Virus record (IMG/VR): IMGVR_UViG_3300042301_001646
Location: 1-40,607 of that record
Length of the DNA stretch: 40,607 bases
Source: a virus
Direction: 5' to 3' (one strand)
Positions 1,982-31,327 of the stretch are shown one piece after another. Below the pieces are notes generated by a model that was given only the letters and a program-made list of their open reading frames with translations, was not told the origin of the DNA and made no database searches. The translations under genes were made by a program, and so were the position numbers. Each line of letters starts with the position of its first letter. The stretch's first letter is position 1.

Positions 1982-1988
1982 TTACACT
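1982..1988 (-). promoter_or_regulatory. AGTGTAA element before tape measure gene
   Basis: On the minus strand GAAAAAGTGTAATTA includes the stop codon of the upstream gene and ends 21 bases before the tape measure ATG. It matches the repeated AGTGTAA core found upstream of several other late genes. The promoter role is inferred from recurrence and position only. Confidence 0.45.
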
Positions 1989-2842
1989 TTTTCAACCAAT
2001 GTTCTCCACTTATCTTCAGTAACCTTCATTTCCTTTTCTTCATTTTCGTGTCCTGACTTTTTAATGAAGTACCATTCCTCTATCTTATCTGGATTTTCTA
2101 AAATATCGTCCGGTGGTGATCCATAATTGGCGTAGATACTTTTAAAATAATTTCCGTATTTCAATAATTTTATTTGATAGTAAGTTAAATTATATACCGG
2201 TTTATTAAAGAAGTCCTTTGGATGTTCAACTAAAGAAAAAGCGTCCTGAAAGAAGAATCCGCAGGCAATAGTTTTTATATTATTTAAATTAAAATTTTCT
2301 AAATTATTCTTACATAATAATAGTATATCAAAATACTCTTCAGAATCTAAGTAATCGAAATCATCTTTAGAATAAGCTTTATTCAATAAATTTTCATCAG
2401 TATAAAGTGAATGAAATATCTGATATTGATTCGACGTATTTTCCGCAAAGTCTTCCGCGCATCCGCGAGTTATATTAAATCTTTCAATAGCTATTTCGTT
2501 ATATGAATTTTGCATTAACTCTATCTCTTCATTTAAAGATTTGAGATGCTTCTTATTTTGCAAACTGTGTTTAGCTTCATGTAATTTTGTTATATCATTT
2601 TGATATGATAGTAAAGATTTTTCTTTGATACTATCCCATATACCTTTAGATGTAGCTATATCTAATTTCTCTTGTCTTGTTTCTAATCCATTGGATTTAG
2701 CTCTTAAAAAAGCCTCTTCGTAAATCTCATCTATAATCGCCGAGTCAAATGGCGACAGATGCTTTACAAAGAGGCTAGTATTTTTAATTACCAACGCAGA
2801 ATATCCAAGACATATATCTCTATAAGTCTTTTTAGTATTCAA
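1982..2842 (-). CDS. Tail assembly chaperone-position protein (286 aa)
   Basis: I do not recognise this protein by motif. It is a soluble, acidic, mostly helical protein of 286 residues with a likely coiled-coil stretch around residues 75-120 (repeated Glu, Lys and Leu spacing) and no membrane segment. It lies immediately upstream of the tape measure gene, where siphophages and myophages encode the one or two tail assembly chaperones that bind the tape measure. It starts 2 bases after the stop of the 263-residue gene, so the two are translationally linked. No slippery frameshift site was confirmed. The chaperone role is inferred from position and could be wrong; a minor tail protein is the alternative. 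Confidence 0.6.
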   Translation of the reverse strand: MNTKKTYRDICLGYSALVIKNTSLFVKHLSPFDSAIIDEIYEEAFLRAKSNGLETRQEKLDIATSKGIWDSIKEKSLLSYQNDITKLHEAKHSLQNKKHLKSLNEEIELMQNSYNEIAIERFNITRGCAEDFAENTSNQYQIFHSLYTDENLLNKAYSKDDFDYLDSEEYFDILLLCKNNLENFNLNNIKTIACGFFFQDAFSLVEHPKDFFNKPVYNLTYYQIKLLKYGNYFKSIYANYGSPPDDILENPDKIEEWYFIKKSGHENEEKEMKVTEDKWRTLVEKV

Positions 2843-2844
2843 GA

Positions 2845-3636
2845 TTATTTAGCTGTTTTCTTTCTTGTTGCCTTCTTTGCTTCAGTTATTATTTCTTTAG
2901 CTGTTTCGATTTTCTCTTCTTCCAATTCATCTAAATTAGCTTCAACAGCCGCGAAATCTTCTTTATCCTTGGCCGCACCAGTTAGATACCCATGATATAT
3001 TACATAAGCCTTATCAAAAGTCTTTAGCTCGAAGTCATACTTATCCTCTTCTTCACAGTAATCATAATAATTATTTAACTTAGAATCAAAGGTCGGACCC
3101 CTAAATACATCTGAATAGCTATTACCTTCTTGTATATAAGATAGATTTAATACAGACCATATAACAGTTTTCTTCTGAGCATAAGATTCGGCACTGCGAG
3201 AAAAATGCTGAAACTGAGTTTGCTCGATAGTATTATATCTTTCGATTAGTTTTGATAATTCAGATTCGATCTCAGTGACTTTACCTTCCTCAGCTTTATC
3301 TAGCTTTAATTTTTGATAAACATTATTCTTTTCTTGAATCTCTTTTAATAGAGAATCCATTTCCTCTAAATCTAAATTAGATAAAGAGCCGCCGCCATCA
3401 ATCAAAGCCCTGCGAATCAAGTCGCTTGTTAAAATACCCCTTGCAACGCATTTCTGTAGTTCGGCAGTATAAACCATGTCCATTTCTTCCCTATCTCTTC
3501 GACTAGGTTGTTTTAGAAAAACTTTTACTGGTGTTAGTTTATCTTCATATTTTAATGTGAAACTCCCATCTTCGTTTTGAGTTTTATTTTCGACTTTTTC
3601 CTTTTTGTTTATAGTAATTGTATATAGTTCTTTCAT
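2845..3636 (-). CDS. Tail assembly chaperone-like protein (263 aa)
   Basis: The protein begins with a short beta-rich segment (MKELYTITINKKEKVENKTQ, then KLTPVKVFLKQPSRRDREEM), followed by helices and a lysine-rich tail ending KKATRKKTAK. The N-terminal KVFLKQPSRRDREEMD pattern resembles phage proteins lying between tail tube and tape measure genes that are usually annotated as tail assembly chaperones. It is the upstream member of a two-gene pair preceding the tape measure, spaced 2 bases from the next gene and 5 bases after the 95-residue gene. Role inferred from gene order and weak resemblance. Confidence 0.6.
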   Translation of the reverse strand: MKELYTITINKKEKVENKTQNEDGSFTLKYEDKLTPVKVFLKQPSRRDREEMDMVYTAELQKCVARGILTSDLIRRALIDGGGSLSNLDLEEMDSLLKEIQEKNNVYQKLKLDKAEEGKVTEIESELSKLIERYNTIEQTQFQHFSRSAESYAQKKTVIWSVLNLSYIQEGNSYSDVFRGPTFDSKLNNYYDYCEEEDKYDFELKTFDKAYVIYHGYLTGAAKDKEDFAAVEANLDELEEEKIETAKEIITEAKKATRKKTAK

Positions 3637-3641
3637 AGTCC

Positions 3642-3929: not shown

Positions 3930-3954
3930 TTTTTTTACCTTTCCTTATATTAAG

Positions 3955-3960
3955 GTACAC
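3955..3960 (-). promoter_or_regulatory. GTGTAC variant of late element
   Basis: On the minus strand GTGTACCTTAATATAAGG follows the tail tube terminator directly and precedes the 95-residue gene by about 25 bases. It differs from the AGTGTAA core by one base in the 3' half, and a TTAATATAA stretch could serve as an ordinary -10. It is listed because each late terminator seems to be followed by such an element; on its own it is weak. Confidence 0.25.
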
Positions 3961-3990
3961 AAAAAAAGAGGGGCTGTGAAGCCCCTCTTT
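3961..3990 (-). terminator. Intrinsic terminator after tail tube gene
   Basis: On the minus strand the stem GAGGGGC / GCCCCTC (3981-3987 with 3968-3974) has a six-base loop and is followed by a run of seven T. The stem extends by two A-T pairs. It lies 24 bases past the tail tube stop codon and separates that highly expressed gene from the chaperone and tape measure genes. Confidence 0.9.
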
Positions 3991-5149: not shown

Positions 5150-5968
5150 TTATTGTCGGGGCTGTCTAACAACTCCAACTTTTAATAATCCCATACCTAT
5201 TTGAGTATTAGGATTCTTTTGAGCGAACTCGTCATTCTCTATTATTTGAAAGCTAGAATCTAAAATATAAAAATTATTTGTAGAGGAATTTAGTATGTTT
5301 TCGTAATTCCAAGGACCAGACTTCACATCATTATATTCATTTAGTGGGGTGTTTGATAATAACGGAACCATTCGTTCCTTTAAATCTCTTATAACGTGCT
5401 GAAGCCCGATTATTTGATTATTATCACTTGTTAAACATAAAACTCTTATATTATAAATAGTCCAATCAGTACCACCAAATGAATAAGGCTCATTATTAGT
5501 TGTGAATGATCTTATAATTAAAGCTGGAAATACTATATCATCTGGTTGGAGTGGCTTATTAGCTGGGGCTAAATCGGGCAATCTTAGAAAGTTACTTTCA
5601 TTTATGACTTGCATTTCAGATTTAGTAGTAACATAGATATGGAAATCACTGACCGGAATATTTATAGATCCAGTTCCAATAGAAACACCTGTATTAACTA
5701 TAACTCTCCCATTTTTAAAATCCAAAGCCAAACCGCTCACCCCTCTATTCAAAGATCCTATACCACTTGGTATTCCTGATGTTATTGATTCATCATAAAC
5801 CCAAAATGGATAACTCGAACCATATACATTCTTATTATATAAACGACTATCAGAATATTTTGTAAAATTTAAGGATACTGTTTTGTATGCCTGTAAATCT
5901 TTTAATAATCTGTAATTTATATACTCTTTTAATGAGGAGAGTATTCTATGGTCCAAAATCTGTATCAT
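5150..5968 (-). CDS. Tail completion/neck-region structural protein (272 aa)
   Basis: A 272-residue protein with no firmly recognised motif. It is helical at the start (HRILSSLKEYINYRLLKDLQ) and then beta-rich, with several Gly/Ser/Asn-rich segments as in virion structural proteins. It lies in the neck module directly before the tail tube gene, where tail terminator or tail completion proteins are encoded. Its start overlaps the previous gene by 23 bases, showing tight coupling. An AGTGTAA core inside the preceding gene (6002-6008) lies 33 bases upstream of this ATG. The exact neck function cannot be assigned. Confidence 0.6.
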   Translation of the reverse strand: MIQILDHRILSSLKEYINYRLLKDLQAYKTVSLNFTKYSDSRLYNKNVYGSSYPFWVYDESITSGIPSGIGSLNRGVSGLALDFKNGRVIVNTGVSIGTGSINIPVSDFHIYVTTKSEMQVINESNFLRLPDLAPANKPLQPDDIVFPALIIRSFTTNNEPYSFGGTDWTIYNIRVLCLTSDNNQIIGLQHVIRDLKERMVPLLSNTPLNEYNDVKSGPWNYENILNSSTNNFYILDSSFQIIENDEFAQKNPNTQIGMGLLKVGVVRQPRQ

Positions 5969-6530
5969 TTTTATAAATATCTTTTAAATAATTAGTTTGT
6001 ATTACACTATTATCTCTTATCTGGTTTTTAACCTGGATACCTTGATTAGATCTACCTAATGGTCTTTTATAAGACGCCATGAAGTGTCCAAATCCATCAA
6101 TACCAACTTCCAGAGCTTCTGGCCAGGACATACCATTACCCCATTGCAATAGTAAACTAGAATGAAGTCTCATTTCTTGATAAGTTGGAACTTTAATTAC
6201 AACTTTTAATGATAATCTATCAGGAGATTGAATATAAATTGGCTGGATATTTTCCTCGAGATAAGTATATAAAGAAGACACTGGATCAGGTTGAGCAGCT
6301 GAATCGAAACCTAAAAATCCGTATAGAGTACCGTAACCATTTAAATAAGAAGATTGAGCAGTTCTATTGCTAATCTCTATGCTTATTGGATGTTTTAATA
6401 ATCTATTTAATATCTTGGTTTTTTTAGACTTGTAAATAGTCTGAGCTTTAACTGCTAAAACCTTGGATACGAATCTACCTAAATTATCTTTGAAATAAGT
6501 TCTTAATTTCTTAAAATCATTCTTCTTCAT
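5946..6530 (-). CDS. Neck/tail completion protein (194 aa)
   Basis: A 194-residue basic protein (MKKNDFKKLRTYFKDNLGRF) with a mixed alpha/beta pattern (RLSLKVVIKVPTYQEMRLHS) and the motif WGNGMSWPEALEVGIDGFGH. It fits the size and order of tail completion or minor capsid-like proteins between head closure and tail tube genes. Its ATG overlaps the TGA of the preceding gene (ATGA), and it overlaps the next gene by 23 bases. Assignment rests on synteny; no family is recognised with confidence. Confidence 0.6.
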   Translation of the reverse strand: MKKNDFKKLRTYFKDNLGRFVSKVLAVKAQTIYKSKKTKILNRLLKHPISIEISNRTAQSSYLNGYGTLYGFLGFDSAAQPDPVSSLYTYLEENIQPIYIQSPDRLSLKVVIKVPTYQEMRLHSSLLLQWGNGMSWPEALEVGIDGFGHFMASYKRPLGRSNQGIQVKNQIRDNSVIQTNYLKDIYKNDTDFGP

Positions 6531-7523: not shown

Positions 7524-7862
7524 TTATTTAGTTGAATTCAAGATCTCCAGAGCCCTCTGTCTTTTTTCTAGTTGTTCAGGAGTTTCTATAATATCTTTCC
7601 TTTGATTACACGCAGCTAGGTGATTTGACTTAGCTCTGGTGAATTCTTGGAATAAAAGTCTTTCCATTCTTCGACGATCAGAGTGCGGCTTTATACCTAA
7701 TTGAATTGCATGATAATGAAGATCACTTAGATTCATTGCCCTTATCTTCTTTGTGTATTCATCTATATCCTCAACACGATAACTAGCGAATTTGCTTGTT
7801 GCTAACATATCTTTTAGTGTCGGATTTTTCCCATTTTGCCCATCAGCCTTGTGTTTATACAT
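7524..7862 (-). CDS. Small basic protein with HeH/SAP-like helix pair (112 aa)
   Basis: A 112-residue basic protein. Residues about 43-75 (RAMNLSDLHYHAIQLGIKPH then SDRRRMERLLFQEF) form a helix-extended-loop-helix pattern of the LEM/SAP/Rho-N kind often found in phage head proteins, where it may bind DNA or other proteins. It is the first gene after the capsid terminator and heads the connector group. An AGTGTAA-related element (TGTGTAA) lies 20 bases before its ATG and an AAAAGG purine block sits between. Specific function unknown. Confidence 0.6.
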   Translation of the reverse strand: MYKHKADGQNGKNPTLKDMLATSKFASYRVEDIDEYTKKIRAMNLSDLHYHAIQLGIKPHSDRRRMERLLFQEFTRAKSNHLAACNQRKDIIETPEQLEKRQRALEILNSTK

Positions 7863-7882: not shown

Positions 7883-7889
7883 TTACACA
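7883..7889 (-). promoter_or_regulatory. TGTGTAA element before connector genes
   Basis: On the minus strand CATTGTGTAATTGGCGAAAA lies between the capsid terminator and the 112-residue gene, 20 bases before the ATG. It shares GTGTAA and the downstream CGAAA with elements before the protease and sigma-operon genes. Because a strong terminator lies just upstream, the connector genes need either readthrough or a new start here. Confidence 0.45.
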
Positions 7890-7910: not shown

Positions 7911-7936
7911 AAAAAAGACAGGGCTTTCGCCCTGTC
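7911..7936 (-). terminator. Strong intrinsic terminator after capsid gene
   Basis: On the minus strand GACAGGGC-GAAA-GCCCTGTC is a perfect 8-bp stem with a GNRA-type GAAA tetraloop (7917-7936), followed by a T run broken only at its end. It lies 25 bases past the capsid stop codon and should end most transcripts carrying the protease, decoration and capsid genes. Confidence 0.95.
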
Positions 7937-7961
7937 TTCGTTATTATTTTTGTATTATTGA

Positions 7962-9696: not shown

Positions 9697-11805
9697 TTAT
9701 TTAAGTTCAAACATTTCTTTTAGATTCCATGGCTTTAGTGTTTCTACTTTCTCACTTGAGTCACTACCGGCATTTGGAATTATTTCTACAGAAGCCTTTG
9801 CTTCTTTTAAACCCTCTGTAATATCAGATACGACTGGGGTATTTTGTTTTTCGCGACTAGCTAGGATGACAGAGCCATCTTCTTCTAACCATGCGTTATA
9901 AGATTCTTCGTCTAAATCACGAATTTGTTTTGCTATGATTTTTGTTACCTTTTCGTCTAAATCATATTTATTAGAAAGTGATAACATACGAGAATCAAAA
10001 AGTCTTTGTTTAGATTCTTGTTCAACTGTCTGCTTCATTTCAGCTAGTTCAGTTTGAAGTTTTTCTAATTGATTTTGTGTGTCAGTGGCTTTAGAAATAG
10101 CATCAGAAAGCTCTTTCTCTTTACTGTCTTTTTCTTTTACCATTGCTTCATAGCTATCATTTGCTATTTTGATCTGGTCTGAGAAAAATTCACGAATAGC
10201 TTGTGGAGTAATCCCCTCTGGAAGAGAGGCGTTGCTCAAGCTAGTATATAGTTCGTCAATATTCTTAAATTTCATAATGTTAGTAGTTTTTACAATTTGT
10301 TTATATTCTTGTGAAATTATATCATCATTTTCACTAGAAAAAGATTCATCATAATCTTCATCTACTTCATTTACTGATGATAAACTTGGGTCTAATTCTA
10401 AAATCTCATTTTGTGAAGCCATTGACGAAACTGGACTTTTATCCCAAAACCTACAACTCCAGTATCTAGCTTTCCATTTCGGACCTGGGTTTGTATCGCA
10501 TTGGTGTCTAGCTCTAAAGCTTTTTCTTGCCTCAGGATTGTCGCGGCGGATTTCCATATTTGGATCACCAAATTTAACCATTACGATATTTCCTTTATCG
10601 TTTTTAACATAAACACCAAATTTCTTTTTAGAGCCTGATGGTAGTCTAAATGGTTTATTTAATGTTTTATCTTCATTTTTCTTAGCTTCAGAAACTTTCT
10701 TAACTAAACCATCTGGAATAACTGCAAATCTACAATTTCCGCCTGGTTCTATAGATTGTTTCAATACCTTACATCCATTCTCACAGCACATTAATGCGCA
10801 GTTACCACAATTAACTCCTATAGAGTAATTTGGATTATCTTTTTCATTGACATAACCAACCCAAATACCTTTAGCTTCATCAAGTGGCCCAACCTCATCA
10901 CTAAGTTCAATTAATGAATCAGCTAATTTTTTTTCATCTTCTGACAATGAATCATAAATGGGTTTATTTACCCATTCCTCATCTTCAGATTCCATATCGT
11001 CTCCCTCTTCTTCCTTTTCAGAAAATTCGACTTCTAATTCTATCTTAACTGTTTTTTGTTCACTAGCTATAGCGACTCCTTGAACAGCAGCGGCTGGATT
11101 TGATGTAAATGCGCAGCCTAATGGTCTAGCCTCCCCTACTATAACTCTATAAACTTCTTCACCTGTTTTAGTAAAACCTGTTCCACCATTAGATATTAGA
11201 TACCCATCTAATTTTTTAATTTCAGCTTTATCTGTTATTAATTTAGCTTTACTTAAATTCTTAGAACCAACAGCTATAACATAGTCATTAAATCCTATTT
11301 CCCAGCTAGTTGACATATCTCCATAAGGGAAATTTTCGTCACTATTCATTTCTTCCAGGAAATTAGCTAAACTAGGATCGACATGTTTCCAAACAATGGC
11401 AGCAAGAGCTATATTAAAAGGTTCGTTTAAATTAGCAACTTCACTTTCTGAAAGTAATTTACTATCTTCAAAAGTAGAAAATCCAACATTTGTAATATAT
11501 CCAACAACATTATTTCTAAGATGCTCGATATTCATTGGCTTGTTTTTGAAATATTTAGCCATTGATAGAGCAGTTTCTGTTTGTATCCCGTCGCCATTTA
11601 AATTAATTAAATTAACAACTGCTGCATTGAAATAAGTATATAGAAGATCAGGATTCTCCTTAATGTCAGCTTCTGGTGGGAGAAGCTGCTTTAAATCTTC
11701 TAATTTCTTTAATACTTCTTTTTTAGAAGCTACACTTTTGAATGTTAAATCTTGCTTTGCAAAGGAAGTTTTTAAGCAAAATGTACTTTTATATCGAAAA
11801 TTCAT
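9697..11805 (-). CDS. Prohead maturation protease fused to scaffold, with Cys-cluster insert
   Basis: A 702-residue multidomain head assembly protein. Residues 1-235 resemble phage prohead proteases (KNKPMNIEHLRNNVVGYITN with a candidate catalytic His, and GDMSTSWEIGF). An acidic linker follows. Residues about 330-365 carry CGNC-x3-CC-x3-C and a later GGNC, a four-or-more-Cys metal-binding-like module. Residues 394-453 form a basic module (FGVYVKNDKGNIVMVKFGDP, then RRDNPEARKSFRARHQCD) seen in prohead core proteins of other environmental phages. Residues 511-702 are a coiled-coil scaffold. An internal ATG at 10275 (MKFKNIDELYTS) could start a separate scaffold, but no clear ribosome site is seen. 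Protease plus scaffold in one chain is known in several phages. Confidence 0.8.
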   Translation of the reverse strand: MNFRYKSTFCLKTSFAKQDLTFKSVASKKEVLKKLEDLKQLLPPEADIKENPDLLYTYFNAAVVNLINLNGDGIQTETALSMAKYFKNKPMNIEHLRNNVVGYITNVGFSTFEDSKLLSESEVANLNEPFNIALAAIVWKHVDPSLANFLEEMNSDENFPYGDMSTSWEIGFNDYVIAVGSKNLSKAKLITDKAEIKKLDGYLISNGGTGFTKTGEEVYRVIVGEARPLGCAFTSNPAAAVQGVAIASEQKTVKIELEVEFSEKEEEGDDMESEDEEWVNKPIYDSLSEDEKKLADSLIELSDEVGPLDEAKGIWVGYVNEKDNPNYSIGVNCGNCALMCCENGCKVLKQSIEPGGNCRFAVIPDGLVKKVSEAKKNEDKTLNKPFRLPSGSKKKFGVYVKNDKGNIVMVKFGDPNMEIRRDNPEARKSFRARHQCDTNPGPKWKARYWSCRFWDKSPVSSMASQNEILELDPSLSSVNEVDEDYDESFSSENDDIISQEYKQIVKTTNIMKFKNIDELYTSLSNASLPEGITPQAIREFFSDQIKIANDSYEAMVKEKDSKEKELSDAISKATDTQNQLEKLQTELAEMKQTVEQESKQRLFDSRMLSLSNKYDLDEKVTKIIAKQIRDLDEESYNAWLEEDGSVILASREKQNTPVVSDITEGLKEAKASVEIIPNAGSDSSEKVETLKPWNLKEMFELK

Positions 11806-11814: not shown

Positions 11815-11821
11815 TTACACT
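11815..11821 (-). promoter_or_regulatory. AGTGTAA element before protease-capsid operon
   Basis: On the minus strand TTAACTAGTGTAAAACGAAA lies between the endolysin stop and the protease start, ending 9 bases before the ATG. It is one of the best copies of the repeated element and would drive protease, decoration and capsid genes up to the terminator at 7911-7936. A short leader without a Shine-Dalgarno site would result if transcription starts just downstream. Confidence 0.55.
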
Positions 11822-13192: not shown

Positions 13193-13630
13193 TTACATAG
13201 AGGCAGCCTCGTCTAAAGCTCTTGCGGTTTCAGAAAAGAATAGAGATACAGTTTCAACTGTTATTTTTGAATTCTTATCTAGGAATAGTTCATAATTTTG
13301 AGCTATTGTATATAGTAATAATTCCCAGGTTTTCTTATCACTTAATAACTCTGAATCTTCATATATAGATCCTGGAGTTGGATGAGTTGGAAGTGTAAAT
13401 GATTTAATTTTTCCAGCTATAAATAATAAATCTTTCTTTTTGTTATTTCTTTCTTCTGTAGTCTTACTAGAATTTAAAATGCCCAAAGCAATCAATTTAG
13501 TGCTTGGATAAGCATATTGAGTAGCATTTTGTAAATTTACATTGTGCTTTTCTACAAAACTATCAATACTAGCGCAGCTACATATAAAAATAGCAGATGC
13601 AAGTAAAAAACCTTTTGATATTAATTTCAT
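13193..13630 (-). CDS. Lipoprotein in lysis cassette (145 aa)
   Basis: A 145-residue protein with a clear lipoprotein signal (MKLISKGFLLASAIFICSCA, lipobox ICSC near residue 19). The mature part is mostly helical and shows no motif known to me. It overlaps the holin gene by four bases and sits in the lysis cassette, so a role in lysis, in exclusion of other phages or as an additional spanin component is possible. It is the first of two lipoprotein genes in the cassette. Confidence 0.6.
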   Translation of the reverse strand: MKLISKGFLLASAIFICSCASIDSFVEKHNVNLQNATQYAYPSTKLIALGILNSSKTTEERNNKKKDLLFIAGKIKSFTLPTHPTPGSIYEDSELLSDKKTWELLLYTIAQNYELFLDKNSKITVETVSLFFSETARALDEAASM

Positions 13631-13941
13631 ATTTTTTTACCTTTCTTTTTCTTTGGTGCTAGAGTATTTTCACGTACAACCTTAGCTTTTGGTATTTTAT
13701 GACTATCAGATCCAGTAACATTATAATCCTTACTAAATGTAAAGCCAAGAGCTATTAAAACAGCAACGCTTACTTTAGATATTCCCAAGATATAATTTTC
13801 AAACCCATCTGGTAGAAAAGATATAAAATCAGGATTTTCATGAATCGTAAATATAGTTGCGGCTAATATACCACAAACAGAACTTTTCCAACTTTTGCCA
13901 AGGTATTTTTCAATTAAAAGTTTCATATTATTCTTTATCAT
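13627..13941 (-). CDS. Holin
   Basis: A 104-residue small membrane protein. Two hydrophobic segments (SSVCGILAATIFTI near residues 20-33 and ILGISKVSVAVLIALGFTFS near 52-71) flank a short polar loop and are followed by KDYNVTGS and a lysine-rich tail (KKKKGKK). The segment before the tail resembles the (A/S)KDxNVTG ending common in small phage holins. Holins form the inner-membrane lesions that release the endolysin. The start overlaps the portal stop by 14 bases; a second Met at residue 6 gives the possibility of two starts, as in dual-start holins. Confidence 0.78.
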   Translation of the reverse strand: MIKNNMKLLIEKYLGKSWKSSVCGILAATIFTIHENPDFISFLPDGFENYILGISKVSVAVLIALGFTFSKDYNVTGSDSHKIPKAKVVRENTLAPKKKKGKKI

Positions 13942-15842: not shown

Positions 15843-15849
15843 TTACACT
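15843..15849 (-). promoter_or_regulatory. AGTGTAA element before portal gene
   Basis: On the minus strand TTAATTAGTGTAAAATTTCG lies in the terminase-portal gap, 25 bases before the portal ATG, followed by TATAAT and AT-rich sequence. It is one of the closest matches to the shared TTAAnTAGTGTAA pattern. Confidence 0.5.
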
Positions 15850-15934
15850 AATTAACAATTTAAGACGATAAATCGCATTAACTAATCTATTTAAGGCGGA
15901 AAATCGAATTAACCGATCCATTTAGGGCGGAAAA
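15847..15934 (-). repeat. Degenerate 31-base tandem repeat at terL 3' end
   Basis: Two imperfect 31-base copies (15904-15934 and 15873-15903) and a third more decayed copy (about 15847-15872) follow each other. On the minus strand each begins near TTTTCCGCC and continues to GTTAATNCGA. The first copy holds the last codons of the terminase (PKWIG and stop), so the gene end was duplicated into the gap. It could be a simple slippage product or a site of use, such as a packaging site. Confidence 0.7.
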
Positions 15935-17757: not shown

Positions 17758-18681
17758 TTAAATTAACTTTCTATCTTTTAAATATTCTAAATCTAAATCC
17801 TTTACTTGATCTTTTAATCTAAAAATCTTCTCAATTATTTGAGATGCTCTAAGTCTATTACCAGCAAATATAAATTGAATGTTGTCATATTTTGACATGA
17901 TTTCTCTTATTTCATGAAATATATGAGCAGCATTTATTTTAGTTTTTATTTTAGTTCTAGGAGTATATTCAAGGGCTTCTATATAACTACCATCAATAAC
18001 AACAACTAAATAAAAACCAAGTTCTACAGCTTTATCAATTTCATTTCTAAATCTGTCTATACCTTGACTTAATGTACCAAATAAATCTGGTATAGATTTT
18101 CTCTCAACAAATACGTTTGAAAAGAAGTCTTTAGATGGGCAGTAGTCTCCAGTAGGAAGCTTCATCGTTTCGTTTTTTAAAGTAAACATTAATGGCAACT
18201 GCTCTCTTGAATCTATAAATATCTTCATATCTCCAGGATGATAAACTGGAGTTAAAGAATAATTATATCTAGGTTTATATCCTATATTTTCAGCTTTATT
18301 GAAAAACAAATCTAAATTACCAAATAGTTTTTCTATACCTATATAAGAAGGTATTATTAAACTTTTTAATTCAACCTGGGAAGGTAGATATGAGGAATCT
18401 TTCCTTTCCCTTCTTTTTGATAAGAATTCGAGACAATACTCAGCGGCTTCGTCTTTATTACCTGGGTCTGAAGCCCAGAACGTAAAAGTTTCTCTATTAT
18501 TAAAATCAGATGAAAAATACTGTTCGTAATTTTTATAAACAATAATATCCCCTGGAGAACCTTTGTCATATCTAGGATAATACTGGTAGTAGTAATCCTT
18601 TATAGACATATCATGAGCTTTTAAGTGTCTATGTAATCCAGCGACACCTGCAAAGCTTTTACTGCAAAATTTACATTCCAT
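17758..18681 (-). CDS. C2H2 zinc finger plus ERCC4-type nuclease
   Basis: A 307-residue protein in two parts. The N-terminus is a classical C2H2 finger, C-x2-C-x12-H-x3-H at residues 3, 6, 19 and 23. Residues about 152-285 form an ERCC4/XPF-type nuclease: DSRE (157-160), GDY (178-180) and ERKSIPD (193-199), the ERKx3D metal-binding signature. The middle region (SIKDYYYQYYPRYDKGSPGD) is of a type found in zinc-finger proteins of other phages. ERCC4 nucleases cut branched or flapped DNA. It lies between the small-terminase candidate and TerL, overlapping the former by one base, which suggests a role in DNA processing before packaging. That role is inferred. Confidence 0.85.
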   Translation of the reverse strand: MECKFCSKSFAGVAGLHRHLKAHDMSIKDYYYQYYPRYDKGSPGDIIVYKNYEQYFSSDFNNRETFTFWASDPGNKDEAAEYCLEFLSKRRERKDSSYLPSQVELKSLIIPSYIGIEKLFGNLDLFFNKAENIGYKPRYNYSLTPVYHPGDMKIFIDSREQLPLMFTLKNETMKLPTGDYCPSKDFFSNVFVERKSIPDLFGTLSQGIDRFRNEIDKAVELGFYLVVVIDGSYIEALEYTPRTKIKTKINAAHIFHEIREIMSKYDNIQFIFAGNRLRASQIIEKIFRLKDQVKDLDLEYLKDRKLI

Positions 18682-19790
18682 TAGAATTTAATTATTTCTT
18701 CTATACTCATTCCCCAAACTTCAGCTATCAATTCATCGAAGTTATCAATTCTCTTGATCTCTTCTTGGATTTCTAAATTTTTAGCTTCAGCTAATCTAAG
18801 TAGTTTCTTTCTTCCATTTTCTTCTTGAACAAGTTCAACGAATTTAGTTAAAGATTCATTTAAATTAGCTATATCTTTTAATCTTTCTGATCTTGAACCA
18901 CTTAGACTTTGTTGTAATTGAGTGATTCTTCTTTTACATTCATTTGACTCTTTTGTTTTAGCAGATAAAGAGTTTGAAAGCGACATTGTGAATGTCCTAC
19001 TATCTTCATCTTCTACAGTAGATTCACAGAGACGGTCATTTAATAAATTTATCTGTTCTGTAATGGTAACGTCTAATACATACTCATTACATAATGTAAT
19101 ATACATATTTGTTTCTTCTGCATTTAGATCTGGCTTATCATAAGTAGCTTTTACGAATTCACTTTCATACAAATCTCTTAATTTCTTTCGTCTTATAGAA
19201 TTTGCTATTGCCAAAAAGCGAGGAGAGTGCATATTACGTTTCAAAGCCGCAATCCACTCACGTTTCCTAGAATCTAATTTAGTAACGTGTAGTTTTAAAT
19301 TGATATCAGCCTTATTCATCTTTTCTATAACCTGGAAGTCTGTTTTTGGAGGTTCATAGTCACTCTCAACCTCCTCTGCTGTTATAGAATCCCCTTCCCA
19401 TGGAACCCCTAAAGCTTTGGCAACCGCCGCAATTGTTTGAGATTCTTTTGCTAAATTGCTATCTGAGTTTGGATAGAATTGCCTGGCTATATCTATAGCT
19501 CTAATAACTGCCCCGTTATTTTGAATAAATTCTATCTGTTCTTCAGTAAGATCAGTAGCCTTTATTCCCTTTTTATATTTGACTAAAAAGTTCTTAACAC
19601 TCTTAAATTGATCTGAATGTTCATCTAATGATATATCTTGGAAACAGTCCTGTGTTAATTTTAATAAATCAGTTCTTGTCGCATTCTTTTCAACAAATAA
19701 TTGTTGATCTAAAGAAAGACCGTACCTATATTCATTTAAAATTCTATCTGCTCTATTTTCCTTGACATCAGTTTTTTTTCTACGACTCAT
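18681..19790 (-). CDS. Terminase small subunit candidate (369 aa)
   Basis: The start is set at the ATG at 19790 (MSRRKKTDVKENRADRILNE); an upstream TTG at 19802 is possible. The 369-residue protein is helical, with a long coiled coil (SNECKRRITQLQQSLSGSRS and KKLLRLAEAKNLEIQEEIKR) and a central basic region (LDSRKREWIAALKRNMHSPR). Small terminase subunits often combine a DNA-binding start with a coiled coil and lie before TerL, which fits, but this protein is longer than most and no helix-turn-helix is certain. Its start overlaps the sigma-like gene by 11 bases. Confidence 0.5.
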   Translation of the reverse strand: MSRRKKTDVKENRADRILNEYRYGLSLDQQLFVEKNATRTDLLKLTQDCFQDISLDEHSDQFKSVKNFLVKYKKGIKATDLTEEQIEFIQNNGAVIRAIDIARQFYPNSDSNLAKESQTIAAVAKALGVPWEGDSITAEEVESDYEPPKTDFQVIEKMNKADINLKLHVTKLDSRKREWIAALKRNMHSPRFLAIANSIRRKKLRDLYESEFVKATYDKPDLNAEETNMYITLCNEYVLDVTITEQINLLNDRLCESTVEDEDSRTFTMSLSNSLSAKTKESNECKRRITQLQQSLSGSRSERLKDIANLNESLTKFVELVQEENGRKKLLRLAEAKNLEIQEEIKRIDNFDELIAEVWGMSIEEIIKF

Positions 19791-20484
19791 AAACAATATC
19801 AAATTCAGTTACAGCTTCTTTAGCAATCTTTAGTATTTCGCTTTTTATATTAAATATCTGTTTGTATCCGGCAACTCTTTTTTTACCATTATATCCAGCT
19901 TCGTTATTTTTAAATTTCATAATGTCGGATACTTCTTCGTCTGTCTTACATTCTATATAAATTAGTTCATAAAAACGATACAATCTTGGAGATAATCTTG
20001 ACTTCATTTCTAAGTGAAATCTATTTGTTGCGCGCTCTAAATCAAAAGATTGTTCTATTGGAAGATCTATTGTCTTATCATTAAAGTCAGACCTCTCTAA
20101 AGAAAGAGCTAGTTTTATATTATAACCATTCTTCCTACTCTTCTCCCATCTACCATATAATTTACATGTATTATCCTTTACCCCGGTATTGGTAAAGCTA
20201 CATAAATTATTTCCATTATTAAATGGACAATCATTACATGGTGGAGCTAATTTACCGTAATTATTTCTTATTAAATTTCTTATTTGGTGGTTGATAACAC
20301 CACTCAACCAATTTTCTAATGGTCTTGACTGATCCCATAGATGCCACTTTTTATATATATGAGTTCTTATAATTTGACTTATATCATCATAGTCTAAGTC
20401 AGCTAAAGTATTTAACTGCCAATGCCCCTTTTTCTTACTGAGCATACTATCTATAGTATCTATTTTATCTTCAAATTTAAACAT
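19780..20484 (-). CDS. Sigma-70-family-like factor with zinc-binding insert
   Basis: A 234-residue protein that looks like a divergent, phage-encoded RNA polymerase sigma factor. Residues about 30-76 (THIYKKWHLWDQSRPLENWL followed by INHQIRNLIRNNYG) resemble sigma region 2, which contacts the core enzyme and the -10 element. Four cysteines follow (C83, C86, C95, C107), a likely zinc-binding insert. Residues about 164-195 (SPRLYRFYELIYIECKTDEE then VSDIM) have a region 4-like helix pattern. It lies in the operon leading to TerL. Phages such as T4 use a small encoded sigma (gp55) for late genes; a similar use here is inferred and could explain the AGTGTAA elements. Confidence 0.7.
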   Translation of the reverse strand: MFKFEDKIDTIDSMLSKKKGHWQLNTLADLDYDDISQIIRTHIYKKWHLWDQSRPLENWLSGVINHQIRNLIRNNYGKLAPPCNDCPFNNGNNLCSFTNTGVKDNTCKLYGRWEKSRKNGYNIKLALSLERSDFNDKTIDLPIEQSFDLERATNRFHLEMKSRLSPRLYRFYELIYIECKTDEEVSDIMKFKNNEAGYNGKKRVAGYKQIFNIKSEILKIAKEAVTEFDIVYES

Positions 20485-20849
20485 TAATCTAAATCAATTG
20501 ATTTTACTTGGCGAACTCTTTCTCGTAGATTTTCTAAGTTCTTTTTAGCATTTTTAGGAGCTACTCTTTCTGCCCCTTGAATACTAGACGGATTTTTATA
20601 AATATCTGCTATTGTAACAGATTTAGAGCCTCCGACATTTATATCAAATTCAAACATATTGGATAAATCAAATGATTGTATCTCATCTTCCTCTTCTTCA
20701 TCTTCTTCTGGCTCCGGTTCAATAACCTTTGGTTTTGATGCTACAGATTTATTCCATGGAAAAGAAGATCCGCACGATGTGCAGAAATTTGGCTTTTTAG
20801 ATACATATTCATTAGGCCCACCACATTGTTGACAAAAAATTTTAAGCAT
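20484..20849 (-). CDS. Zinc-ribbon protein with acidic linker (121 aa)
   Basis: A 121-residue protein starting with a zinc ribbon, CQQC and CTSC separated by 14 residues (FCQQCGGPNEYVSKKPNF, then CTSCGSSFPW). A Pro/Glu-rich acidic linker (EPEPEEDEEEEDE) and a hydrophobic patch (SFDLSNMFEFDINV) follow. It overlaps the sigma-like gene by one base and the 56-residue gene by eight. Similar ribbons occur in transcription-associated phage proteins, and its acidic middle could contact polymerase, but function is not established. Confidence 0.65.
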   Translation of the reverse strand: MLKIFCQQCGGPNEYVSKKPNFCTSCGSSFPWNKSVASKPKVIEPEPEEDEEEEDEIQSFDLSNMFEFDINVGGSKSVTIADIYKNPSSIQGAERVAPKNAKKNLENLRERVRQVKSIDLD

Positions 20850-21024: not shown

Positions 21025-21031
21025 TTACACT
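21025..21031 (-). promoter_or_regulatory. AGTGTAA element before sigma-terminase operon
   Basis: On the minus strand TATTAAAAGTGTAACGCGAA lies between the glycosyltransferase stop and the 56-residue gene, ending 12 bases before its ATG. It would drive the 56-residue, zinc-ribbon, sigma-like, small-terminase candidate, nuclease and TerL genes. If the sigma-like factor reads this element, its own gene is autoregulated. Confidence 0.55.
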
Positions 21032-21051: not shown

Positions 21052-22035
21052 TTAATTATACTTTAATAAGTTATTATTATAATATTGCTCTATAGATTGG
21101 ATAACTTCTAAAGAATTTATATCATCCATACATTTAGGAATGTAGAAATTAGAGAAACTATCTTTATATTCATCCGGTGGATTATAAGAAACTTTATTTA
21201 AACATTGTTTCTGTTCTTCTATAATAGCATCTTTTGGTTCGGCACAATATTTTCTCCAACAGCCGCCTTTATCACAACAAGGCATAGTACCTGCCCTTGT
21301 TATATACTTATGAGTAGAGTATTTTTCCCATGATGGGGGTTCCATACCAGTAGCTACAACAACGCACGGCCTGTTTCTTAAACCATGTTTAGATGGAACG
21401 GCTGCGGCGAAGTGCATCGCGCAGGTTATAGTTGATAAGACACCAATACTATGATAAAATAATCTTATATACTGCCTTAAATTAGTTTTCCCGCGTAAAT
21501 CAATAACATTAGATAATTTAGGATGAAAATGATTCAGCGTTCCGGTCTGAACAAAAGTTATCTTACCTTTAAAATGATCTACAACTTCCTGCCACTTATT
21601 AGGATTCCAGTATTTAGATGTGAAGTCGAATTTGCCGCCAGCGCAGATAATCCAGAACTTATCCTTTATATCCATCTCCTCTATTTGACTCATCCATCTC
21701 ATCTCATCTTTAGATAAATGAATATCCCCTCTAGCGTCGGTTAATGGTATTTTAATATCTAATTTTTCTTCAAGATCTTTGTGAAAACCATGAATAAAAT
21801 GATAACCACCTTGATTACTTTTATTAATTAGTTTGTATTCAGCATCTATTACTAAATCAGCTTCATTTTCATCAAAATTTACTATATATGGATTATGTCT
21901 CCATATATCCATTGCAGATGTTCTTACATTAGTTATATATTTGCCTGGATGAGCTAAATGTAAATCCCTAATAGCTGCTGTTAGCATTAGTACATCACCA
22001 GGAGATTTAGTATGCTTTAACAATAATTTAATCAC
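21052..22035 (-). CDS. GT9-family (heptosyltransferase-like) glycosyltransferase
   Basis: A 327-residue protein with the GT-B pattern of the ADP-heptose:LPS heptosyltransferase family (GT9): N-terminal KSPGDVLMLTAAIRDLHLAH, matching the G-D-x-L-x-x-T-x-A-I-x-x-L motif; the C-terminal half has KYWNPNKWQEVVDHFKGKIT and LSTITCAMHFAAAV, the family nucleotide-sugar region. A Cys-rich tail (MPCCDKGGCWRKYC) is an addition. The start is GTG at 22033-22035, with no better ATG. It lies in the late tail-spike region, which suggests modification of virion or host surface glycans; sugar and acceptor cannot be told. Confidence 0.8.
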   Translation of the reverse strand: MIKLLLKHTKSPGDVLMLTAAIRDLHLAHPGKYITNVRTSAMDIWRHNPYIVNFDENEADLVIDAEYKLINKSNQGGYHFIHGFHKDLEEKLDIKIPLTDARGDIHLSKDEMRWMSQIEEMDIKDKFWIICAGGKFDFTSKYWNPNKWQEVVDHFKGKITFVQTGTLNHFHPKLSNVIDLRGKTNLRQYIRLFYHSIGVLSTITCAMHFAAAVPSKHGLRNRPCVVVATGMEPPSWEKYSTHKYITRAGTMPCCDKGGCWRKYCAEPKDAIIEEQKQCLNKVSYNPPDEYKDSFSNFYIPKCMDDINSLEVIQSIEQYYNNNLLKYN

Positions 22036-22992: not shown

Positions 22993-25461
22993 TTAAATCC
23001 CTACGGTAAGCATTATATGACCACTTGTTGTATATACAACTCCACCCGTAGAATTGACATTATGATATATACCACCATTACCAACCTGTAGATCAAAAGT
23101 TCCGTTTACTGTGTCGTAATTATTTAAATAAACACCCACAGACTGACCAAGATTATTTATAGAATTACTTATTTGTCTCGGGTCGGTTCTCAAGGCAACA
23201 GAGGTTACGAGCCCAATACATTTATAAGATATCCCTGGTGAGTGTCCGTTAACACCACGTCCCATTTTTAATCCCGTAACTCTTGTTGGCTGCGCTCCGG
23301 TACTAGTAACCATTAACCACTGAGAATCGTAACCACCAATTACAGTTCCATTTGTTATTGAAATTCCCGATTCTGTCCATTTTACAACCCTAGCATCATT
23401 TGTCCCATCTGTAATAGTACCCCCGAAATAATAGTGCAAAGCTCCAGCCCTAGGTGCATTTGGGATTGTTGTATTATCAGATAAAAATGAATTTGCTATT
23501 TTCAAAGATTCATTTCCATTATTTGCATTGGAAAATATATAATAATTAAATCCACTTGCGTTATCTTCAACTATATTTGATTTTATAATAGAATTAGGTC
23601 CAACAACACTTATAGACGATTCTGATGACATATCGTTGTCGGCGTATATTCCAAACATCTGAACTGCAAATGGTCCCATTCCACCATAATTTCTTATAAC
23701 ATTACCCTCTATATTACTATTTAAATCCTTAGCAGTTCTTATTGCGGTTGATACACTAGATCCTAGCACACCAGATTGAAATGTACCTGTCATTAATAAT
23801 AAGTTGTTTTCTATATTTACATTTTTATTCATGAAAGTATAGACTAGATTAAAATCAGTTCCAGCGACAAACGAACTCTTATCAAATACAAAGGTATTGT
23901 TATTGATTTTTATATTTTGGCGTCTATCATGTTCTGTATAATTGGATGTATCTCCACCAAAAACAACAAAATTCCTAGAAGGTCCTGTGCAGAAATTATT
24001 CTCAAATATAATATCTTCAAATAAAACCCCGCTTACTCTTGGACTCTCATTAACAAATAAACATGCGCTGTGAGTTGAATTCATATAAAATCTATTATTT
24101 CTTATAATAAATCTCTTAACTGAAGATCCCCCTAACCCACCAGAAGGATTGAACACATGTCGCGAGGCTGTCCCACTCTCTCTTGATTCAAATACACAGC
24201 CTTCAAATAAAATATCACTCACCTCATGGTTATTCGCATGAGTCATATCAATATCCTTACCATCATCACTATTAGGGCGTTTAGCAAAATAACAATTTCT
24301 TATTGTTATTCTTCTAACCGGCATATTAGCGATTATTTTACTTTTTGGCCCAGCGTCACCCGAGTCAAATTGAACAATAGCTGTATGCCCACCATAAAGA
24401 TAGCAATTTTCAATCAACATATCTGTACATTGATTAATCTCTAAAGAATGATAGCGAGACTCCCCTATTGTAACATTTTTAATATAAATAAATTTACCAT
24501 GAACTAAATTAAATATATTGCCAGATGATTTATCTTTATCATTAGCCGCGTTTTCAACATAAGGATGAGTTAAAGGACATTCTACTTTAAAATCCTCAAA
24601 ACGCACATTACTTGCAGCGCCGTAGGCAGTTGATGTAGTTTGAAAACCCTTTAAATTTATCAATCCGCCAGTACCTCTAAATGAAGCGGAAGTACCCTTT
24701 AAAACAGAATTGTTACCAAAACCTTTAAATACTGTGTTTGAACCGACTTCAATACCAATACATCCTGGACTTTGCGTAGGGGTGTCTGTAGCCTGTGTTT
24801 GAATACATTCAATTCTATAAGTCTTTGGTCCCAGCATTACAGTACCACCTCCAGCAGCTTCCGCTGCGTCACAGCAAGCCTGTATAGCGGCTCTATCATC
24901 TGTTGTTCCATCACCTACTGCACCATAATCATCTACATAAAATATCCCCATCTTTAATAGCCCATTATCAGAACTAGCAGCTACAGGAGCTATCCATTGG
25001 CTAGACGAACCGTCATTATAATAAGCATACAAAGATCCATACTCAGAGTTTAGCCACAATGTGCCATTACTAGGTGTAGAAGGCGCTGAGGAGCCTATAT
25101 ACAACGTACTATTAGAATCACCTTGATCCCCCTTAGGCCCCACCAGAGAGACGCCTGAGCCCCAACTCACAGCATCCCCTGATTTCGGACCATATAACAT
25201 TGGTGCCGAACCATATTTTATGTAATAATCGCCAGATAATCCTTGACTTGAAGCTGGGGTTCCAGTACCGTCTAGTATAGTTGTAGTATTTGTACTAAAT
25301 AGTGGAACCGATGATCCATCATGATATCTTAAAAAAGCATCTAATTGTGCATCTGTACCAGTGCTAGGGGTTAGATATAAAAAAGCGTCAGCTTCGACCA
25401 CACCTAAATGTAATCCTAAAACTCCTAGTCCAGATGGGATACTTCCTGTTGGGGTTGGCAT
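22993..25461 (-). CDS. Tailspike with pectate-lyase-like beta-helix
   Basis: An 822-residue tailspike. Residues 1-165 form a particle-binding-like region with a GPKGDQGD collagen-like piece and a repeated W/Y pattern (NGTLWLNSEYGSLYAYYNDG). Residues about 174-640 form a right-handed parallel beta-helix that begins with the Pectate_lyase_3 signature (YVDDYGAVGDGTTDDRAAIQ) and continues through recurrent asparagine-rich turns (IRNCYF, FIIRNNRFY, FENNFC, INNNTF, IENNLL). Such spikes bind and often cleave surface polysaccharide. The catalytic residues cannot be assigned by eye. It is preceded by an AGTGTAA element and followed directly by a fibre gene. Confidence 0.9.
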   Translation of the reverse strand: MPTPTGSIPSGLGVLGLHLGVVEADAFLYLTPSTGTDAQLDAFLRYHDGSSVPLFSTNTTTILDGTGTPASSQGLSGDYYIKYGSAPMLYGPKSGDAVSWGSGVSLVGPKGDQGDSNSTLYIGSSAPSTPSNGTLWLNSEYGSLYAYYNDGSSSQWIAPVAASSDNGLLKMGIFYVDDYGAVGDGTTDDRAAIQACCDAAEAAGGGTVMLGPKTYRIECIQTQATDTPTQSPGCIGIEVGSNTVFKGFGNNSVLKGTSASFRGTGGLINLKGFQTTSTAYGAASNVRFEDFKVECPLTHPYVENAANDKDKSSGNIFNLVHGKFIYIKNVTIGESRYHSLEINQCTDMLIENCYLYGGHTAIVQFDSGDAGPKSKIIANMPVRRITIRNCYFAKRPNSDDGKDIDMTHANNHEVSDILFEGCVFESRESGTASRHVFNPSGGLGGSSVKRFIIRNNRFYMNSTHSACLFVNESPRVSGVLFEDIIFENNFCTGPSRNFVVFGGDTSNYTEHDRRQNIKINNNTFVFDKSSFVAGTDFNLVYTFMNKNVNIENNLLLMTGTFQSGVLGSSVSTAIRTAKDLNSNIEGNVIRNYGGMGPFAVQMFGIYADNDMSSESSISVVGPNSIIKSNIVEDNASGFNYYIFSNANNGNESLKIANSFLSDNTTIPNAPRAGALHYYFGGTITDGTNDARVVKWTESGISITNGTVIGGYDSQWLMVTSTGAQPTRVTGLKMGRGVNGHSPGISYKCIGLVTSVALRTDPRQISNSINNLGQSVGVYLNNYDTVNGTFDLQVGNGGIYHNVNSTGGVVYTTSGHIMLTVGI

Positions 25462-25470: not shown

Positions 25471-25477
25471 TTACACT
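25471..25477 (-). promoter_or_regulatory. AGTGTAA element before tailspike gene
   Basis: On the minus strand TTAAATAGTGTAATAGTTAA lies between the phoH stop and the tailspike ATG, ending 9 bases before the ATG. The same spacing is seen at the protease and fibre-operon elements. Confidence 0.55.
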
Positions 25478-28988: not shown

Positions 28989-28989
28989 A

Positions 28990-29454: not shown

Positions 29455-29461
29455 ACAATTA

Positions 29462-30958
29462 TTAAGAAAATAAACCAACTATAGCTATATTACTTATAGT
29501 ATTTAAGTTTGTTATATCTGGCTTATTTAAGATTACACTAGATCCACTTGTAGAATTCCAATCTGCGTTAATATTTTTTTCAGCACCAGATTCTATGCTA
29601 TTAAATTTCAATCTATCAGTAGATGACATTAAACCAGCATCCCCTGTTGTAGAGATATTTATAGAAAAACCGCTTCCATTACTATTACTTATAGACGCAC
29701 CTGTTGATGAATAACTTATAGACAAATTAGACTGTGAGGATGGAGTGCTGTAAACTAAATTGCCGGATGAATCTATTGACTGTACAAATTGACCTGCGGA
29801 GCCAGAATTTCTCTTGACACCACCTATAACTGTGGGGGTCGCGACTGGTAACGTATAGTTATTGGCATTGACAGCGATGCCGTCTAATTTAGTGGCATAA
29901 GCTGGCGACATTAAACCATCCTGTGATGCTGTAGCTAGTCTTATAGAGTCGCTGCCGCCACTTGTATGAGAAGATGAGTGTGATAGTGGTGTTCTACTAT
30001 CTGTGAATCTAGGGTCATTTCCGACCGCTACTGTATTTGATAAATTACCTGTATTTAAAGCCGCTGCTGAACCTAGAGATGGTTTATTTAAAATAACAGC
30101 ATCACCAGTTGTAGCGTTCCAATCAGAATTAACATTTACCTCCGCGCCGTCTTGGATAGTATTTAATTTAGTTTTGTCAGCGGCTGAAAAAGATCCAGCA
30201 AGAGATGGGGTCGCTTCATTTATTATAGCGTCAGTACCAGTATCGCTATTGATAGTAACTCCCGTTGAAGAATACGATGTAGTTAAATTAGTAGATCCGT
30301 TTGATACAGCAGCGTAAACTAAATTGCCCGAAATATCTATAGATTGAACAAATTCTCCAGAAGCGCCGGCATTTCTTTTAACCCCACCTAAAGTTGTAGG
30401 TGTTGGAGTTGGTAATATATAATTATTGGCATTTTCAGCTATCCCGTCTAATTTGGAGGCATAAGCCTGGGTCATTAAACCATCTTGAGACGAATTAGCA
30501 TCCCTAATTTTATCTAAACCACCAGTAACGTGATCGGAAGCATGTATAGATACAGCAAAATCACCTGAATTACTTAAAGCGGCGGTCCCCAAACCTAAAT
30601 CAACTCTAGTATCTGCGGGAGTTTTATCTTCCCATATATTAGACCCAGAGTTTCTAACTAAAAACGCTGTAGAACCTGATGTTGATATATTTACATCTGT
30701 AAGATCATTTATACTAGAAGAGCTTCCAGAAACTGATGAGAAACCACCGGTTCCATTTAAAAATAAACTTGAATTATTTGGTAGGAGAACAAGATCCCCA
30801 ATAGTTAATGGATCGCTACCATTATAGCGATGTGTAACCGCATGATTAGACGGTATAACTGCATCTGTATATGTGCAGTCAACAGACTCTCCAGAATTAT
30901 CTACAGTTAAGTTATAATTATCTGGATTATCAGCAACTATTAAAATAACATTACTCAT
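29462..30958 (-). CDS. Tail fibre with internal duplication (498 aa)
   Basis: A 498-residue Ser/Asn/Gly-rich fibre. Residues about 165-300 and 340-480 are duplicated: DGLM-x-YA-x-KLDGIA-x-NANNY, the TLGGVKRN / VIGGVKRN block, FVQSID-x-SGNLVY, then AE-x-N-x-DWN and VILNKP are found in each. The N-terminal region (MSNVILIVADNPDNYNLTVD) includes an NHAVTHRYNGSDPLTIG segment found in other fibres. A phage-tail adhesin or tail tip fibre is likely. Its ATG overlaps the stop of the upstream gene (ATGA). Confidence 0.82.
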   Translation of the reverse strand: MSNVILIVADNPDNYNLTVDNSGESVDCTYTDAVIPSNHAVTHRYNGSDPLTIGDLVLLPNNSSLFLNGTGGFSSVSGSSSSINDLTDVNISTSGSTAFLVRNSGSNIWEDKTPADTRVDLGLGTAALSNSGDFAVSIHASDHVTGGLDKIRDANSSQDGLMTQAYASKLDGIAENANNYILPTPTPTTLGGVKRNAGASGEFVQSIDISGNLVYAAVSNGSTNLTTSYSSTGVTINSDTGTDAIINEATPSLAGSFSAADKTKLNTIQDGAEVNVNSDWNATTGDAVILNKPSLGSAAALNTGNLSNTVAVGNDPRFTDSRTPLSHSSSHTSGGSDSIRLATASQDGLMSPAYATKLDGIAVNANNYTLPVATPTVIGGVKRNSGSAGQFVQSIDSSGNLVYSTPSSQSNLSISYSSTGASISNSNGSGFSINISTTGDAGLMSSTDRLKFNSIESGAEKNINADWNSTSGSSVILNKPDITNLNTISNIAIVGLFS

Positions 30959-31287
30959 TTTGTATTTGCTCTAATTATTGTTGCTGCGCCTTTAATTAGT
31001 TTTAAAGAATCTCCAGCAGGAGTTGTTAAAAATAAATCCCACGAGGCGGGGGAGTCGTCTAAATTGATTGTCTGTTCATCAGTTAAGGATAACTTTATAG
31101 AACCTATAGCCGCATTTAAAACTTCGATAGTCATTGCTGTTAAAAAAGAGAAATCAAAATTTCTTCTTATATGGGCTCTTAATGTACAGTCGGTTAAATC
31201 ATAGCTACCGACACATGTATTTATTTTTAAAGACATGTTCCATGTAGCTCCCTGTTCAATAGTTATATCTAAATTTGCCGCAGCCAT
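30955..31287 (-). CDS. Small beta-sandwich tail protein (BppU N-term-like), 110 aa
   Basis: A 110-residue protein with N-terminal LDITIEQGATWNMSLKIN, then LTDCTLRAHIRRNF and ASWDLFLTTPAGDSLKLIKG. The pattern matches a small Ig-like family found before tail fibres in many phages, related to the N-terminal domain of baseplate upper protein. It is the first gene of the fibre operon, with the AGTGTAA element 9 bases before its ATG. It probably anchors the fibres to the tail tip. Confidence 0.7.
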   Translation of the reverse strand: MAAANLDITIEQGATWNMSLKINTCVGSYDLTDCTLRAHIRRNFDFSFLTAMTIEVLNAAIGSIKLSLTDEQTINLDDSPASWDLFLTTPAGDSLKLIKGAATIIRANTK

Positions 31288-31294
31288 TAACTTT

Positions 31295-31327
31295 AATTAC
31301 ACTTTTAGAGGCTAAATAGTGTAAATT
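31295..31327. promoter_or_regulatory. Divergent AGTGTAA pair in an inverted repeat
   Basis: Two AGTGTAA cores face outward: minus strand 31303 to 31297 and plus strand 31318-31324, around a TTTAG-AGG-CTAAA centre. The whole block is a near-palindrome. The minus element lies 9 bases before the fibre-operon ATG and the plus element 8 bases before the ATG at 31333. It is either a divergent promoter or an operator for a dimeric regulator. Confidence 0.6.

Follow-up and report, generated by a model that had tools for sequence, protein, structure and literature searches.

The hexamer GTGTAA recurs shortly upstream of genes in IMG/VR virus record IMGVR_UViG_3300042301_001646, and we propose, with a probability of roughly 0.8, that it is a single-element promoter of non-early genes, which would be read by host RNA polymerase together with a phage sigma factor and would give leaderless or nearly leaderless mRNAs. 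The whole stretch analysed, positions 1 to 40,607 of the record (40,607 nucleotides, nt), is called the window below; it is probably a fragment, since the tape measure gene runs off its left end. The proposal is based on sequence comparison between the window and a group of related phages.

Enrichment of GTGTAA upstream of genes

A first-pass annotation of the window had proposed the heptamer AGTGTAA as the core of a phage-specific late promoter. Our recount agreed with all 13 of its coordinates (10 minus-strand and 3 plus-strand copies), with the position of the copies at 1982, 11815, 13945, 15843, 21025, 25471 and 31297 at gene junctions and of the copy at 6002 located 33 nt before a start codon, and with a spacing of exactly 9 nt to the ATG at three sites. 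Raw counting of AGTGTAA is by itself a weak, marginal case: 13 copies occur where 6.3 are expected, and 13 is also reached by 3 of 100 shuffled sequences. It is the position that carries the weight. Of the 22 window copies of GTGTAA, 9 lie at most 45 nt ahead of a gene start, against 0.56 expected (p=2e-9, 52 gene starts), and in the 30-nt upstream regions of the window genes GTGTAA is the top hexamer (7 of the 22 copies against 0.35 expected, p=4e-8). The GTGTAA sites considered here are the following.

31297-31302, minus strand, 9 nt before the ATG of gene 30955-31287
31319-31324, plus strand, at a divergent junction and followed after 45 nt by the ATG of open reading frame (ORF) 31370-31600, an uncertain gene
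25471-25476, minus strand, 9 nt before the ATG of the tailspike-like gene 22993-25461, with a pectate-lyase fold
21025-21030, minus strand, 12 nt before the ATG of an ORF of 56 amino acids, the first in an operon with the sigma gene
15843-15848, minus strand, 25 nt before the portal-position gene 13928-15817, with TATAAT 7 nt downstream (putative composite promoter)
13945-13950, minus strand, 3 nt before the first in-frame ATG of gene 13627-13941 and 18 nt before the second
11815-11820, minus strand, 9 nt before the ATG of gene 9697-11805, kept in 12 of 52 orthologues
7883-7888, minus strand, preceded by T, 20 nt before gene 7524-7862, with a Shine-Dalgarno (SD)-like AAAAGG and a terminator-like hairpin directly upstream of the site
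6002-6007, minus strand, 33 nt before gene 5150-5968, found in 4 of 16 orthologues and there at 8-10 nt
1982-1987, minus strand, 21 nt before the tape measure gene, with an SD-like AAGG in between, found in 5 of 5 orthologues

Only the GTGTAA part of the proposed core is conserved and the leading A is not required, so that a ninth upstream site, 7883-7888 (TTGTGTAA), which had been missed, joins the others. Two minus-strand copies of the original list, 27835 and 29533, fall within ORFs, at over 45 nt from the nearest start; they look like chance, as do the plus-strand copies 4156 and 13392, which are antisense within late genes. The remaining plus-strand copy, at 31318, does hold GTGTAA and is the inverted partner of 31297 on the minus strand; it precedes the uncertain ORF just listed. 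The shared upstream bases TTAANT correspond, in the relatives, to nothing more specific than general A/T-richness. An extended consensus, TTAANTAGTGTAA, was also tried and rejected, having only three exact copies in the window and no conservation in its upstream part. The inverted pair of the divergent junction (31297-31324) resembles a back-to-back pair at 29824/29831 of a relative, G010, in which a gene similar to 30955-31287 matches phrog_1084.

Relatives were gathered from IMG/VR by homology of terminase, capsid and sigma proteins, and the motif played no part in their choice. Their identity is roughly 36-83%, more than 500 contigs match the terminase profile, and the largest measures 200 kb. 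In the first set, consisting of 1275 gene upstream regions, GTGTAA ranks first among the 4096 hexamers, with 215 occurrences (a count that still included a few overlapping loci) against about 5 expected, that is, a 43-fold enrichment. A held-out set, collected later with a different query and de-duplicated against the first, put GTGTAA first again (62 against 1.8 expected), with GTGTAT likewise enriched. The core is nearly invariant, since the variants GTGTAT, GTATAA and GTGTAC are raised only slightly. Moreover, the 223 unique genes whose ATG is preceded at 8-12 nt by GTGTAA encode 69 unrelated protein families, and therefore the enrichment is not explained by common ancestry of a few genes. 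The marginal raw count in the window would agree with a chance or compositional artefact, due to an A/T-rich genome or to stop codons (valine-stop) beside start codons; however, the relatives refute it by their 43-fold enrichment, its replication in the held-out set and the 69 families, and other NNNTAA hexamers lack a comparable enrichment, leaving this explanation with practically no probability.

The first-pass annotation had called for enrichment upstream of genes over chance, which is thus present in window and relatives, and for conservation at orthologous junctions, which was also found: GTGTAA stands before the portal-position gene in 51 of 69 cases, before the tape measure gene in 5 of 5 and before PhoH in 17 of 38. 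It is absent from the orthologous junctions of terminase (0 of 75), sigma (0 of 54) and capsid (0 of 27). At the portal-position junctions of relatives, for example L028:11002, L039:5711 and L044:10955, a palindrome, AAAGTNACTTT, lies shortly upstream of GTGTAA; it was counted 47 times in about 2 Mb, most of the copies inspected being at the portal-position junction, and the junctions carrying it often show TATAAT 6-8 nt after GTGTAA. Judging from this layout, the three elements together look like an operator plus a composite promoter. In the window, an imperfect 31-bp tandem repeat (15858-15934) lies directly upstream of the putative portal-position promoter.

Searches of the published phages of INPHARED with the sigma and capsid proteins brought up no relatives, and the terminase matches named phages at about 25% identity only. 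Metagenome-assembled genome bins containing terminase relatives were assigned to Flavobacteriaceae, Flavobacteriales, Halobacteriovorax, Verrucomicrobiales and an unclassified bacterium, so that the binning points to no single host.

Spacing to the start codon and gene classes

We collected the distances between GTGTAA and ATG for 261 de-duplicated sites of the first set located at most 45 nt before a start. The distance is 8 nt in 88 sites, 9 nt in 38, 10 nt in 26, 11 nt in 16 and 12 nt in 8, while it is shorter than 8 nt in 7; the pattern persists when each family has one vote (32, 20, 8, 6 and 3 for 8 to 12 nt). Statistics also reveal an avoidance of SD sequences at close sites: of the 176 sites at 8-12 nt, 8 show an SD-like motif, compared with 14 of the 30 at 19-25 nt and with 22% of the genes without the element. 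At far sites with no nearby TATAAT, the ninth base downstream of GTGTAA is a purine in 74% of cases. A one-sided wall, with SD sequences only beyond it, is expected if transcription starts about 9 nt after the hexamer, because closer ATGs would not be transcribed, adjacent ones would be leaderless and far ones would need a ribosome site. From these patterns we infer that mRNAs driven by GTGTAA are probably leaderless or near-leaderless, starting right at the start codon.

According to the mechanism that we propose, the core of host RNA polymerase, loaded with a phage sigma70-family factor (19780-20484), would read GTGTAA as a -10-like core, usually followed by T or A and then A and with A/T just upstream, and would start transcription on a purine about 9 bases downstream. 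With the ATG 8 nt after the hexamer the mRNA would begin at AUG; at 9-12 nt it would carry a leader of 1-4 nt, and from about 19 nt upwards it would have a leader often provided with an SD sequence. Early genes would be served by host sigma70 promoters. The statistics establish the element with its rules of strand and spacing, the SD avoidance, the separation of gene classes and the co-occurrence with the sigma gene; the reader, the start site and the timing are parts of the proposal. In the window, the sites at 11815, 25471 and 31297 (9 nt each) follow the rule for near sites, and the tape measure gene (21 nt, AAGG) and gene 7524-7862 (20 nt, AAAAGG) the rule for far ones. The 3 nt to the first ATG of gene 13627-13941 are too close, and in its orthologue in L007 the spacing is 8 nt.

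The location of GTGTAA with respect to neighbouring genes was also evaluated in the relatives. It precedes 3.3% of the genes that follow another of the same direction within 10 nt, 28% of those with gaps of 10-39 nt, 20% of those with larger gaps and 28% of those at divergent junctions. The upstream base composition contains neither a -35 element nor a second element at a fixed spacing, just an A/T preference beside the hexamer.

The element is also unequally distributed between gene classes. In G008, the 200-kb relative, it precedes 1 of 103 genes in blocks of small genes versus 18 of 114 elsewhere (p=6e-5), and in those blocks sigma70 promoters (at least 10 of 12 positions matching) precede 29% of genes versus 3% in shuffled sequence, TTGACA being the top hexamer. 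Similarly, in G010 GTGTAA is found before 0 of 17 early-type and 19 of 82 other genes, and the figures for sigma70-type promoters are 53% against 0%. The genes found behind GTGTAA in relatives include tape measure, tail assembly, minor tail proteins, phrog_1084, the small subunit of ribonucleotide reductase, a gene whose N-terminus resembles, by eye, the large subunit of this enzyme, and a small gene that precedes the one for DnaB helicase. The presence of ribonucleotide reductase genes and of the DnaB operon suggests a timing that is non-early rather than purely late. The earlier idea of a single-element late promoter thus holds insofar as the element is phage-specific, single, lacking a -35 and missing from early-type blocks, but the class is not strictly late.

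These data also allow two other roles of the hexamer to be weighed. GTGTAA could be a signal in mRNA for translation initiation or RNA regulation, replacing the SD sequence and read by the ribosome or by a phage RNA-binding protein, as the tight 8-10 nt spacing, similar to the geometry of ribosome binding sites, and the lack of SD at close sites would suggest. However, the wall at 8 nt is hard and one-sided, with a long tail on the other side, far sites (19-25 nt) often have an SD of their own, operon-internal genes, which need translation equally, rarely carry the element, and GTGTAA occurs at divergent junctions and is nearly exclusive with blocks of sigma70 promoters; we consider this role very unlikely. 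About as little credit can be given to the idea that GTGTAA is a box (MotA-like or replacing the -35) bound by an activator that acts with host sigma70 RNA polymerase, and no -10-like element. Such a box would account for the portal junction, with TATAAT 6-8 nt after GTGTAA and often the palindrome before it, but with the ATG mostly at 8-12 nt a -10 at standard distance would have to lie within the gene itself, at the cost of the start codon, and no other element occurs at a fixed distance.

The candidate sigma factor and known promoter systems

Two adjacent genes of the window are of interest here.

19780-20484, minus strand, phage sigma70-family factor, candidate reader of GTGTAA, with region 2, a Cys-rich insert and a C-terminal helical domain
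20484-20849, minus strand, conserved Cys-rich (zinc-ribbon-like) protein, directly upstream of the sigma gene

In relatives the sigma family is found directly upstream (5') of the terminase, in 73 open frames, duplicates among them. All 52 family members analysed match Pfam Sigma70_r2, the region for core binding and -10 recognition (best E 4.6e-7), the window protein with an E of 4.7e-4, under the Pfam gathering score; 7 of 52 match Sigma70_r4_2, and C-terminal helices are present in the structural model. The AlphaFold2 model has a predicted local distance difference test score (pLDDT) of 81 and a predicted template modelling score (pTM) of 0.43, and Foldseek returned sigma factors throughout the 50 PDB matches listed, with weak E-values (best 0.011). 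The sigma profile gave no convincing match with the sequences of solved structures, a sigma factor appearing at E 0.18. RNA_pol_Rpb2_6, a mark of multisubunit RNA polymerase, was not detected in nine phage records, which may be fragments, while the control was positive in cellular genomes; a search for T7-type RNA polymerase was silent in phage records and controls alike, and hence uninformative. Co-conservation, the absence of any other sigma-like protein in the block and the precedent of phiEco32 lead us to infer that the sigma factor reads GTGTAA. Its operon lies in the window behind the GTGTAA at 21025-21030, which suggests that the factor would sustain its own expression by positive feedback.

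A true promoter with a different reader is unlikely, although it deserves more consideration than a signal or an activator box: a host alternative sigma or another conserved phage protein, such as the 373-amino-acid neighbour (18681-19802) or the Cys-rich protein, might recognise GTGTAA, possibly together with the sigma-like protein. The modest Sigma70_r2 similarity of the window protein (rounded, E=5e-4, below the gathering score) and the roughly equal conservation of its neighbours are in line with this; on the other hand, no second protein of the conserved block was recognised as sigma-like, Sigma70_r2 is matched by every one of the 52 members and the predicted fold matches sigma factors.

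Several points weigh against a non-early promoter read by this sigma factor. The pTM of the model is 0.43 and none of the listed Foldseek matches has an E below 0.001; the modelled protein seems to have a region-4-like domain though no -35 was found; and, as the sigma gene is present in essentially every sufficiently long relative, its co-occurrence does not set it apart from the other conserved proteins. Many non-early genes, such as capsid and terminase, do not carry the element and, on this sequence-based scheme, must be read through, and 'early' is itself a call from gene size and sigma70 promoters. Finally, the window sites are looser than those of the family (9-12 nt in four cases and otherwise 3, 20, 21, 25 and 33 nt), and the gene starts were set by a simple caller that takes the longest ORF.

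The proposed system was compared with those known. Late promoters of T4, TATAAATA, used with gp55, gp33 and gp45, have a single -10-like element, no -35 and a phage sigma acting on host RNA polymerase. The analogy with them drawn in the first-pass annotation stands as a functional likeness in these features and nothing more, since the element is different and no gp55 homology is detectable (hhalign probability 0.2, 52 sigmas against 9 gp55 proteins); TATAAATA is barely enriched in matched windows (16 against 6), in which GTGTAA dominates. A closer precedent is phiEco32 gp36, an extracytoplasmic function (ECF)-like sigma whose middle and late promoters consist of a single element, tAATGTAtA, with the start 6-8 bp downstream (PMC8948821). 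Both systems would combine a phage sigma70-family factor, a single element with no -35 and host sigma70 for early genes, with TGTA in common, and the start-site geometry can be set beside the 8-nt wall and the purine at base 9 deduced here from sequence. Unlike phiEco32, our phages belong to an unrelated, larger uncultured group, with GTGTAA as consensus, a predicted leaderless geometry, a C-terminal region-4-like domain and a Cys-rich insert, and the sigma profile has no similarity to gp36 (hhalign probability 0.1 with a single gp36 sequence, no homology detected).

In phage 7-11, gp47 drives late genes from bipartite promoters, GTAAtg-(16)-aCTA (PMC8948821); the use of a phage sigma, whose gene lies behind its own late promoter in a positive feedback, is similar, but no second element exists here. 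AR9, related to phiKZ, has late promoters AACA-6N-TA/G with leaders of 26-491 nt, read by a phage multisubunit RNA polymerase (PMC5312081). It shares a short phage-specific late element before many genes of a large phage, and differs in that polymerase, not found in our nine records, and in its long leaders, in contrast with the leaderless layout predicted here. We found no literature report of GTGTAA as a phage late promoter, part of the matches being too many and too unrelated for full reading. The kind of system is known, while the sigma lineage, the consensus and the leaderless layout are new as far as our tools show.

We give about even odds to the broader hypothesis that a widespread uncultured lineage switches both promoter class and translation mode at the early-late transition, by means of an orphan sigma, GTGTAA and mostly leaderless, SD-independent late operons. 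GTGTAA would be a readable promoter code, by which the late operons of a large uncultured phage group could be mapped, and would pair a new sigma lineage with its predicted recognition sequence. The systematic leaderless translation of virion genes that is predicted bears on the choice of translation mode by phages during infection.

Other features of the window

Beyond the sites and the sigma operon, three features concern the organisation of transcription.

3965-3990, minus strand, terminator-like hairpin between late operons
7914-7939, minus strand, terminator-like hairpin directly upstream of GTGTAA 7883-7888
31865-39421, plus strand, rightward gene block in which no gene is preceded by GTGTAA, putatively early or of another class

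Located in the same region on the plus strand are a homologue of IMP dehydrogenase/GMP reductase (31865-32854), an auxiliary metabolic gene, two nearby DNA methyltransferases of the C5-cytosine and N6/N4 types (33795-35636), and an HNH endonuclease gene (35612-37369) split by an intein with a LAGLIDADG domain. A perfect 16-bp repeat, GCGTCACGCTCCACCA, is present seven times at the contig end (40495-40607), and the composition differs from about 39.5 kb on; this end is possibly an assembly artefact or a contig junction. On the minus strand, the gene 21052-22035 encodes a glycosyltransferase of family 9 (heptosyltransferase-like), hinting at a Gram-negative host or at a change of surface glycans.

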